Source: Treponema sp. (GTDB lineage: Bacteria > Spirochaetota > Spirochaetia > Treponematales > Breznakiellaceae). From it: 45,081 bases of DNA. A program made the position numbers and the translations under genes. Each line of letters begins with the position of its first letter. The stretch's first letter is position 1. Location of the stretch: assembly GCA_031256445.1 (NCBI GenBank), contig JAIRQN010000095.1, positions 1 to 45,081 on the forward strand, given 5' to 3'. Of the stretch, positions 1 to 45,030 are shown in pieces. The notes under the pieces are model-generated. The model saw only the letters and a program-made list of their open reading frames with translations. It had not been told where the DNA came from and did not search any database.

Positions 1-114
1 TGTTCGACAACTCTGTCAGTTGTCTCACAAGTCCTGCATTTTTTCAGGCTAAAGCCTTGCAAAAATGCATTTTTATAAGGAAGTTGTTTAATAACTGAAG
101 TTATCGAACAACTC
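1..114 (-). repeat. Left copy of a structured dispersed repeat, cut by the window edge
   Basis: Read on the minus strand, this stretch matches the repeat at 44619-44751: the outer arm GAGTTGTTCGATAAC and the block CTTGTGAGACAACT are shared. It forms three successive stem-loops. The middle one pairs TGCATTTTT with AAAAATGCA, and AGGC with GCCT, around a TAAA loop. TATTA follows the element at 115-119, and the other copy has TATTA on both sides. The outermost bases of one end lie outside the window. It could be a MITE-like element with terminal inverted repeats or a structured intergenic RNA repeat; no protein is encoded. Confidence 0.8.
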
Positions 115-151
115 TATTACTAATATCAAATAAAATCAATTGTTTGTCAAG

Positions 152-42765: not shown

Positions 42766-42800
42766 CTGTTTTATAAAAAAACATTTTATTGGAGATTGTT

Positions 42801-44525
42801 ATGATAAAACATGTATGTATTATATGCGGTTATGTTTATGACGGAGAGATTCCTTTTAATGAACTGCCGGATGATTATTTATGTCCGGTTTGCGGAATGG
42901 GTAAAGAAAAATTTAATTTAATCCAAACGGACAATGATAATCAGGAAGACGCCGGGGACAAAAAAATGTTCTGTTTCCAATGTCAGCAAACGGCAAAAGG
43001 AACAGGATGTACCATGAACGGCGTGTGCGGCAAGAAACCGCAGACTGCCGTACAGCATGATATTTTAACCTGTGAAATGATTTCACTGGCTTCGGTAATG
43101 CACGAAAAAGGCATATGCAGCTTGCATGAAGCGGATATGATTGTAGACGGGCTTTTCACCTGCATCACCAACGTTAACTTTGAAACTGAAAAAGCCGCCG
43201 GTCTTGCGGCGGAAATCAGATTAATCCGGGAAAAACTTGAAGGCAATGAAACAATAACAAAAAATGAACTGTTCGCTGCAAACGGGAATACGCGTTCGCT
43301 TCGATCTACATTGCTGTTCGGTCTGCGCGGCATGGCGGCGTATGCGCATCATGCCCGTATTCTTGGAAGACGCGAAGATAAAATAGACGCATGGTTTATC
43401 AAAGGTCTGGCAGCTCTGGGACATGAGCATACCGCGGATGAATGGCTGGAACTGCTGATGGAATTCGGAGGCGTTAACCTTGAATGTATGGAAATGCTTG
43501 ATGCAGCTAACACAGGCGCCTATGGAAATCCCGAACCCGCAGCGGTGTCCTTAAAAGTGAAAAAAGGTCCGTTCATTGTAATATCGGGCCATGATCTTCA
43601 CGATTTGAAAATGCTGCTTGAACAGACTGACGGCAAATGGGTAAATGTCTACACTCATGGCGAAATGCTGCCTGCTCACGGTTACCCTCAGTTTAGAAAA
43701 TATTCTCAGTTAAAAGGACATTTTGGAAGCGCATGGCAGAACCAGCAAAACGAATTTCAAAATCTTCCGGCGCCAATACTGTTCACAACAAACTGCATTA
43801 TGTCGCCTGGGGATAACTACTCGGACAGAGTCTATACTACATCTGTAGTAGGGTATCCCGGAACAATTCATATTGAAGCGGACTCAAACGGTTATAAAAA
43901 TTTCTCTTCGCTTATTGAACACGCGATTAGGCTGGGCGGCTTTCCCGATGATAAGCAGTTTACAGGTCATAATGGCGGGAGTAAATTACTCACAGGGTAT
44001 GGTAAAAAATCAATACTGGACAACGCAGCCGCCATTGTTAACGCTGCAAAGTCCGGTTCAATCAGGCATTTCTTTCTGGTTGGCGGCTGTGACGGCGCAC
44101 AGCCGGAACGCAGTTATTACACTGATTTTGTAAAGCAGACTCCGAAAGATACTTTAGTGCTGACTCTGGCGTGCGGGAAATTCCGGTTCAACGATTTGGA
44201 TATTGGCTCAATAGGTACATTCCCCAGGATTTTGGACATGGGACAGTGTAACGATGCTTATGGAGCGATACAGGTTGTCGCCGCGCTTGCCAATGCGTTC
44301 AGTTGCGGAGTGAACGATTTGCCTCTGACGCTAGTTCTTTCATGGTATGAGCAAAAAGCAGTATGCATTTTACTTACGCTTCTTTTCCTTGGCATAAAGA
44401 ACATCTATATTGGACCAAGCGCTCCGGCATTTTTTTCTGAAAACGTATTGAATTTACTTGCGGATAAATTTAATCTTCACCTGATCAGTACTCCGGAAAA
44501 TGATCTTGGGCAAATTTTGAAGTAA
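42801..44525 (+). CDS. hcp: Hybrid-cluster protein with N-terminal rubredoxin domain
   Basis: A 574-residue iron-sulfur protein related to hydroxylamine reductase; Hcp proteins deal with nitric oxide and nitrosative stress. A rubredoxin-like domain comes first (C6, C9, C28, C31: HVCIICGY and LCPVCG), then the Hcp N-terminal cluster motif C58-x2-C61-x8-C70-x5-C76 ([20 protein letters not shown]). Hybrid-cluster ligands fall in [37 protein letters not shown] and GQCNDAYGA. The start is the ATG at 42801 with GGAG 6 nt upstream; the frame is open four codons further. The fused rubredoxin could pass electrons to the cluster. A terminator hairpin follows. Confidence 0.95.
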
Positions 44526-44531
44526 CCGCAA

Positions 44532-44566
44532 AAGCTGTTCCAATACTTTCTTTTTTGGAACAGCTT
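44532..44566 (+). terminator. Strong hairpin terminator after hcp
   Basis: AAGCTGTTCCAA (44532-44543) and TTGGAACAGCTT (44555-44566) make a perfect 12-bp stem around an 11-nt T-rich loop, 6 nt after the stop codon. There is no long U-tract, so it may be a weak or bidirectional terminator. Confidence 0.7.
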
Positions 44567-44618
44567 CATATAATGATGGGCATTCACTTTTTATAAAAAA
44601 TGTCCCATTTTAATATTA

Positions 44619-44751
44619 GAGTTGTTCGATAACTTCAGTTATTGAACAACTACGCTAAAAAAAAGGCAATTTTTGGGGCTTTAACCCAGAAAATTGCAAG
44701 ACTTGTGAGACAACTAACGCGAACCGAAAGTTCGCAGTTGTCGAACAAGTC
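44619..44751 (+). repeat. Right, complete copy of the structured dispersed repeat with flanking TATTA
   Basis: A 133-bp element bounded by near-matching inverted ends (GAGTTGTTCGATAAC and GTTGTCGAACAAGTC) and flanked on both sides by TATTA (44614-44618, 44752-44756), like a 5-bp target duplication. It has three stem-loops: GTTGTTCGATAACT with AGTTATTGAACAAC; GCAATTTT and GGG with CCC and AAAATTGC; and a longer stem whose loop holds GCGAAC-CGAAA-GTTCGC. It is inverted relative to the copy at 1-114. No coding capacity is seen. Confidence 0.85.
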
Positions 44752-44811
44752 TATTATGGTAATTTGAATATATAACTGACGAAAAATTTTTAAGTTTTTT
44801 TCAAATTCCGC

Positions 44812-44840
44812 TTGACAAGGAGTGTAAAGGTTGGTAGATT
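44812..44840 (+). promoter_or_regulatory. Consensus promoter P1 at the right edge
   Basis: TTGACA (44812-44817), 17 nt, then TAGATT (44835-44840). A TATAAT at 44851-44856 lies just downstream but has no -35. It is followed by a GC-rich, gene-free leader. Confidence 0.65.
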
Positions 44841-44856
44841 GATATCAGGATATAAT

Positions 44857-45030
44857 GGCGGAGACCGCGCGCTAAATGCGTCCGGTCCGGTCTTGGCAGA
44901 CGGAGCCCGGCGGGGCGGTTTGCCGCATAGATCTTCAGAGAGATGGTAAAACCGCTTTGGCGGCCGCCTGTGAAAAAGCGGCGCCCGTGAAAAGCCGCGC
45001 AGCGCGCGGAAAAAAATTAATTGCGTTTGC
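44857..45030. other. GC-rich gene-free leader between two promoters
   Basis: About 175 bp, much richer in G and C than the flanking sequence, with a CCGCGC-AGC-GCGCGG hairpin near 44995-45009. Open frames here are chance. It resembles the leader of a stable-RNA operon or a short RNA gene; no tRNA fold or rRNA sequence is recognisable. Confidence 0.4.

Follow-up and report, generated by a model that had tools for sequence, protein, structure and literature searches.

Bacterial MITEs such as the Correia/NEMIS and RUP elements are short, carry terminal inverted repeats and a target duplication, are highly base-paired and are thought to be mobilised in trans by insertion sequences (IS), as described in the sections of the sources that we draw on (PMC2229807, PMC3049150). 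The BOX elements of Streptococcus pneumoniae, as far as the excerpted account describes them, are small and modular, with outer modules, an optional middle one (boxB), predicted stem-loops and ends that have been likened to an insertion sequence (PMC3049150), and the CIR repeats of Caulobacter, in the description available, consist of two end hairpins and a linker rather than one long stem (PMC2229807). REP and REPIN sequences, the subject of PMC2817692 and PMC3116915, are palindromes in alternating orientation, high in copy number and mostly lying between genes. From spirochaetes themselves, part of one report describes intergenic inverted repeats on Borrelia plasmids, whose stems carry double compensatory changes and which have transposase genes nearby and, in one case, no constant neighbour genes (PMC2674063). 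With each of these systems, the spirochaete repeat described below shares the features just named.

The window, that is, the whole stretch of DNA analysed, is an entire contig of 45,081 nt from a Treponema sp. genome of 2.79 Mb in 107 contigs, and the repeat lies near both of its ends. A complete copy occupies 44618-44752 (+), whereas the copy at 1-115 (-) is truncated by the contig end within its right terminal repeat. The complete copy, R-GAGTTGTTCG...CGAACAAGTC-Y, was delimited by its ends and by a 3-bp target duplication, ATT, at 44615-44617 on the left and 44753-44755 on the right (+), read from the sequence in the register given by the family-wide flank count. The span that the first-pass annotation had singled out, 44619-44751, coincides with the boundaries of the mobile element save for one base at each end. 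Right of the element, the stretch up to the contig end (44800-45081) recurs with 98% identity at the end of a further contig (G000:C13:5981-6262); it is a second, unrelated repeat, perhaps an rRNA-operon leader. On the other side, a gene for an hcp-like reductase (42789-44525; the label comes from reading the sequence alone) is directly followed by a perfect 12-bp inverted repeat with a T-rich, 11-base loop (44532-44566). Promoter-like sites point into the left copy (150-122, -) and the right copy (44782-44753, -) with 10/12 and 9/12 matches, respectively, and the number of such sites near the two copies is about that expected by chance.

According to the fold and the pair table, the right copy (+) comprises hairpin 1 (44619-44651), in which the left terminal inverted repeat pairs with its inner copy, and hairpin 3 (44700-44751), formed by an inner copy and the right terminal inverted repeat, with an extra GCGAAC/GTTCGC stem in its loop. 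The middle module between them (44652-44699), defined by fold and covariation, is made up of an A-rich linker and the middle hairpin; an A-run ahead of that hairpin (44657-44664) reads as a T-run on the minus strand. The corresponding parts of the left copy (-) are found at 82-114 (hairpin 1), 34-81 (middle) and 1-33 (hairpin 3). All pairings previously proposed for the middle stems are present: GCAATTTT (44666-44673, +) with AAAATTGC (44690-44697, +) and, further in, GGG (44676-44678) with CCC (44685-44687) in the right copy, and TGCATTTTT with AAAAATGCA in the left. The extra stem of hairpin 3 had been described as belonging to one copy only, which is true within the window, where the right copy has it and the left does not, but not of the family, in which a third hairpin of at least 50 nt, and hence something extra in the loop, occurs in 42 of 144 copies. 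With a folding energy of -60.6 kcal/mol and a z of -9.5 relative to 200 dinucleotide shuffles, the right copy adopts the three-hairpin structure, and no frame of 60 aa overlaps it. The left copy, folded with its flank, reaches a z of -5.5, and its best fold pairs the two ends together around the middle hairpin instead of forming three separate hairpins.

Searching the same genome by BLAST with positions 44500-44900 yielded 45 places, a number in which some elements are split over two and in which the C13 place belongs to the different repeat further right; allowing 2 mismatches at most, the end motif matched 128 times, compared to 10 matches of a reversed control motif. The repeat was detected in 16 of 39 genomes, namely, this one and 15 of 23 others of the genus, and in none of the 15 genomes from other genera of the order. 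With one genome per species, a hairpin-1 pattern recovered at least 111 stretches, and the matches listed are all from spirochaetes, under the names Treponema sp., Spirochaetaceae, Spirochaetia, Spirochaetes, Spirochaetales and Breznakiella homolactica, the last of which is represented among them by a lone hairpin. The end motif matched 24 times in the Breznakiella genome and 93 and 72 times in two other records (reversed-motif controls: 2, 1 and 5), and several genomes hold tens of copies of the repeat. The Treponema isolate series carrying it are presumably termite-gut genomes. A full copy of the element is also present in contig IMGVR_UViG_3300027864_000896 of a viral collection (L327:62-179, -), so that its carrier is either a phage or a bacterial contig filed there in error. 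Among the titles returned by searches of the open literature on MITEs in Treponema, target duplications of ISL2/IS5 and transposases of termite-gut Treponema, none matched the repeat.

To describe the anatomy of the family, we relied on 144 distinct copies with both end hairpins, extracted from the family loci and oriented. Copies qualified if they had the ends, paired first arms, a hairpin 1 measuring 32-34 nt and a total length of at most 200 nt, and because ends and arm pairing were demanded, folded copies are favoured in this set. The terminal inverted repeats, RGASTTGTTCG...CGAACAASTCY, characterise all 144 copies, having also served for their selection. The element consists of 1 to 3 hairpins and contains no genes. 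Each end folds into its own hairpin, in which the terminal repeat pairs with an inverted copy of itself further in, and the two may be separated by a third hairpin; in 14 of the 144 copies, the middle is shorter than 30 nt and lacks this hairpin. Small perfect palindromes have been gained and lost within the hairpin loops, and minimal forms of about 34 bases (L075, L038 and L255) are single hairpins built from both ends, with ANT on both sides.

Folds of the + strand are the more stable ones in 61/73, 80/124 (the middle) and 87/119 distinct modules of the three kinds, and two special sites, both stable on the + strand only, favour the same strand. At pair 8 of hairpin 1, 79 of 134 copies have G-T, and a tandem G-A/G-A mismatch between the inner and outer arms of hairpin 3 (in the window, 44707-44708 with 44743-44744) is found in 69 of 144, with a fully paired TC/GA at this position in 37; these sites make up the three special pairs, which are not strand-neutral. 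Roughly half of the copies have GA in the inner arm of hairpin 3 precisely where the terminal repeat has TC. Inner arms could differ from the true ends so as to avoid use by the transposase as a second end, against which it counts that the outer arm itself has the inner form in 9 of 144 copies. An alternative reading of pair 8 and the tandem G-A site is that the + strand is folded, as RNA or as DNA.

The repeat is very probably a non-autonomous MITE moved in trans by an IS5-type transposase. Its copies sit in the pattern Y-ANT-[R-GASTTG...CAASTC-Y]-ANT-R, and among the 135 of 144 copies with both flanks, left and right flanks agree at the variable base of ANT in 104 (54.2 expected, p 3e-18) and over the whole triple in 95. 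Positions neighbouring the triple show no excess of equality in these 135 copies, and the target duplication is therefore 3 bp long. Equal triples also flank 11 of the 14 copies without a middle hairpin and 4 (L036, L038, L075 and L085) of 6 one-hairpin forms from the same genome, which were read by eye; the triples of the other 2, L079 and L083, are unequal, as are those of L255. Comparison of the joined flanks of 130 copies with the family loci produced 34 matches spanning the junction, several of them plainly self matches, and alignments were made for two. The first, the only clean empty site seen, is G010:C179, where the element present in G000:C23 is absent and the joined flanks are 89% identical over 403 columns; the element copy at G000:C23 has no legible target duplication. 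In the other candidate, G019:C91, the left flank (tRNA-Ser) is shared and the right flank has diverged. Around the right window copy, the hcp genes of relatives, considered as an empty-site test, can be aligned no further than the stop codon. Movement by a Y1 enzyme is not known to leave a target duplication, and the duplication of ANT speaks against membership of the repeat among REP/REPIN sequences.

Duplications of ANT are made by the ISL2 group of the IS5 family, and the presumed parent, an autonomous partner with the same ends, is an IS of about 0.9 kb found in a relative, with a broken transposase. In G009:C41, an 894-bp segment bears AGACTTGTTCGACAACC at both ends (17/17 each) and encloses the broken transposase, which is 53% identical to the transposase of G023:C194. 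At the latter locus, AGACTTGTTCGACAACC is present at one end only, 4 bases downstream of the stop codon of the transposase. The frame of 200 aa has PF01609 and PF13359 matches above the cut-off, and its best NCBIfam match, NF033581 (IS5_4; E 2.8e-28), falls below the cut-off because the frame ends at the contig end. Among the G023 contigs that start inside a sister IS, all 5 junctions (5 of 7 contigs) run into Y-ANT. PF01609 matched in 16 of 39 genus genomes, own included, and PF13586 once in 23 genomes, in G005, where no end motif was found in the stretch scanned around the gene. Scanning 31 transposase loci for element ends (30 from PF01609 and one from PF13586) identified fitting ends next to the transposase in G003, G013 and G023, on both sides, in similar form, in G003:C54 and on one side in G013:C26; G009:C41 came from a protein search. 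At E 0.001, neither PF01609 nor PF13586 nor PF13359 matches in the genome of the window, where the mover is thus missing, diverged or lost from the assembly. Both IS copies that are readable at the two ends have ANT on either side, with differing middle bases (AAT/ATT and ATT/AAT), and hence no exact IS duplication was seen. The IS ends do not form hairpins, and the 17-bp repeat is all that the IS and the repeat have in common.

Pairing was proposed to be kept while the sequence changes, and the overall covariation is indeed significant for the middle stem and both outer hairpins. For the middle, 66 distinct modules 44-50 nt in length were aligned, among them one row, L100, that is not a true middle, and the structure was drawn by hand from the aligned rows (RNAalifold alone gives 10 of its 12 pairs). 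Rather than being disrupted in most copies, the stem is paired in 92.9% of cells, and two-sided changes affect 11 of the 12 pairs, in a total of 98 cells as against 27.7 in shuffles, a number that none of 500 shuffles reached. The covariation score is 0.359, compared to 0.130 in shuffles and at most 0.111 when the structure is slid. In a plainer scan, which covered 124 distinct middles with lengths of 30-90 nt, the arms matched at 8 or more of 10 positions in 89 and at fewer in 35, and arms of the same middle match each other better than arms taken from other copies (7.94 versus 6.31 of 10). For the outer hairpins, substitutions in 117 distinct rows were placed on a tree built from 65 columns, which yielded 39 double compensatory events in hairpins 1 and 3, whereas 300 null runs gave a mean of 4.6 and a maximum of 10. 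Taken singly, only 3 of the 31 pairs pass a family-wise test, and module exchange between copies could add to the double compensatory events. The compensatory changes extend into the terminal repeats themselves. Covariation and retained pairing together mean that some structure matters or gets regenerated.

The first-pass annotation attributed this pattern to selection on RNA or cruciform structure and suggested a structured RNA; the persistence of pairing was borne out and a cruciform or folded single DNA strand is compatible with it, but the RNA part was not supported. That the copies are functional structured RNAs, either small RNAs or mRNA elements, held by selection on base pairing is highly improbable, even though the covariation of all three hairpins, the very stable fold of the right copy, the G-T and tandem G-A sites, which are in keeping with a + strand RNA, and the more stable + strand folds of all three modules are what such RNAs would display. 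On inner branches of the tree there is also some G-T excess, with 12 changes from Watson-Crick (WC) pairs to G-T against 5 to A-C and 12 to other mismatches (means of 20 reconstructions). On terminal branches, the kinds of mismatch are balanced (34, 32 and 36, in the same order and likewise means of 20 reconstructions), and the outer hairpins, once the three special pairs are set aside, have 59 G-T and 56 A-C among their imperfect pairs (p 0.85), unlike 31 control tRNAs from the same loci, with 39 and 4; this symmetry tells of the copies in place and not of the active lineage, because neutral decay gives the same symmetry. Nor do the copies prefer an orientation relative to genes, as counted with simple frame calls for the 111 of 144 that are flanked on either side by 600 bases: the neighbouring genes run in one direction for 67 (36 copies in the same and 31 in the opposite orientation), converge for 16 and diverge for 17; a further 7 copies lie within a frame of more than 150 aa, and 4 are unassigned. 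The gene ends facing the copies are 101 five-prime and 99 three-prime, and 14.5% of the neighbour distances are negative, so some called frames overlap the element. The mobile anatomy, the target duplications, the empty site and the IS with the same ends further argue against RNA, as do the 14 of 144 copies without a middle hairpin and the Rfam search, which returned nothing at the gathering score and two miRNA matches far below it. As a candidate in its own right, an RNA gene was rejected because of orientation, strand symmetry and mobile anatomy, with the proviso that neutral decay also yields symmetry. Pairing of the middle module alone could instead be kept by selection on termination if this module were an intrinsic terminator on the minus strand of the element, a function that we regard as unlikely. 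Of 124 distinct middles, 97 have a minus strand on which the middle hairpin is followed by at least 5 T within 8 bases, as opposed to 1 of 124 for the plus strand, and the imperfect pairs of the middle, read on the + strand, include 30 A-C against 13 G-T cells (33 against 14 in the plainer scan), an excess that fits termination because G-U pairing on the minus strand would produce it. When counted by distinct contexts, however, these pairs are 13 A-C and 12 G-T; the middle fold is more stable on the + strand in 80 of 124 and on the minus strand in 34; and tandem genes impose no orientation bias. The terminator scan, whose criteria demand short loops, reported two sites for the right copy; these are on the minus strand and fall within hairpin 3, not the middle, and the left copy is free of such sites. 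The A-run may simply be inherited.

The pairing of the element is most likely maintained at the level of DNA, by template switching or because folding is favoured in transposition. In the scheme that we propose, the transposase would bind the outer arms, cut, and join them to ANT; arm-to-arm template switching, or better transposition of copies that fold, would keep the hairpins paired; and inserted copies would then decay neutrally. Mutation alone might suffice, if replication slips from arm to arm and rematches the arms with no selection on structure, an account that we find plausible while stopping short of favouring it outright. It would explain why both sides change on one branch, with 39 compensatory events where 300 null runs averaged 4.6 and never exceeded 10, as well as terminal-branch mismatches of all kinds with no G-U preference and the small perfect palindromes that come and go in the loops, and template switching has been described, in the part of the work cited here, as a source of compensatory changes in RNA genes (PMC8794818). 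Whole-module exchange between copies, however, would give the identical pattern on the tree, and a tree from 65 columns leaves the branches uncertain. The other possibility, which we consider somewhat doubtful, is that folding of single-stranded or cruciform DNA improves transposition and that pairing is selected at that step. The reach of the compensatory changes into the terminal repeats is consistent with this, and so is the frequent GA in place of TC in the inner arm of hairpin 3, which could prevent its use as a second end. The presumed parent IS, on the other hand, has no hairpins, single-hairpin forms also have target duplications (4 of 6, by eye), and we know of no requirement for hairpins in IS5-type transposition. 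Maintenance at the DNA level would amount to strong covariation without RNA function, in which the arms of a mobile DNA are matched by arm-to-arm copying or by selection on folding during transposition; we advance this only tentatively. With the same reserve, we suggest that it spans many spirochaetes and operates even inside the ends that the transposase is expected to bind.

A small repeat whose stems covary can easily be classed as a new structured RNA, and earlier spirochaete repeats were read as structured RNA in the part of the report that treats them (PMC2674063). Here, the target duplications, the empty site, the IS with the same ends and the strand-symmetry test with its tRNA control distinguish a MITE from an RNA. 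If covariation without RNA function is the true reading, the family is a natural test bed and a warning for covariation-based RNA discovery, and if pairing were shown to be regenerated at the DNA level, the family would be well suited to measuring the origin of compensatory changes.

The spirochaete repeat differs from each of its closest counterparts in a particular way. Correia/NEMIS and RUP elements form, in the accounts available, one stem closed by both ends, with TA termini (PMC2229807, PMC3049150), whereas each end of the spirochaete repeat folds on itself and ANT is duplicated, with the ends often reading TA or CA beside it. Relative to the CIR repeats as partially described (PMC2229807), it often has a third hairpin and, in addition, a target duplication. 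The likeness to BOX elements, which come from another phylum, is one of description, and as against the arrangement given in the excerpt (PMC3049150), no tandem array of the middle is seen here and duplication of ANT is demonstrated. From REP/REPIN sequences it is set apart by its target duplication. The Borrelia plasmid repeats, whose changes were read as conserved RNA structure in the part of the source considered (PMC2674063), are likewise similar by description, and neither a target duplication nor strand symmetry is mentioned for them there. With IS of the IS5 family (NF033581), the repeat shares the 17-bp ends, as found in G009:C41 and, at one end, in G023:C194, and the ANT target, but it has no transposase, and only the ends are in common.
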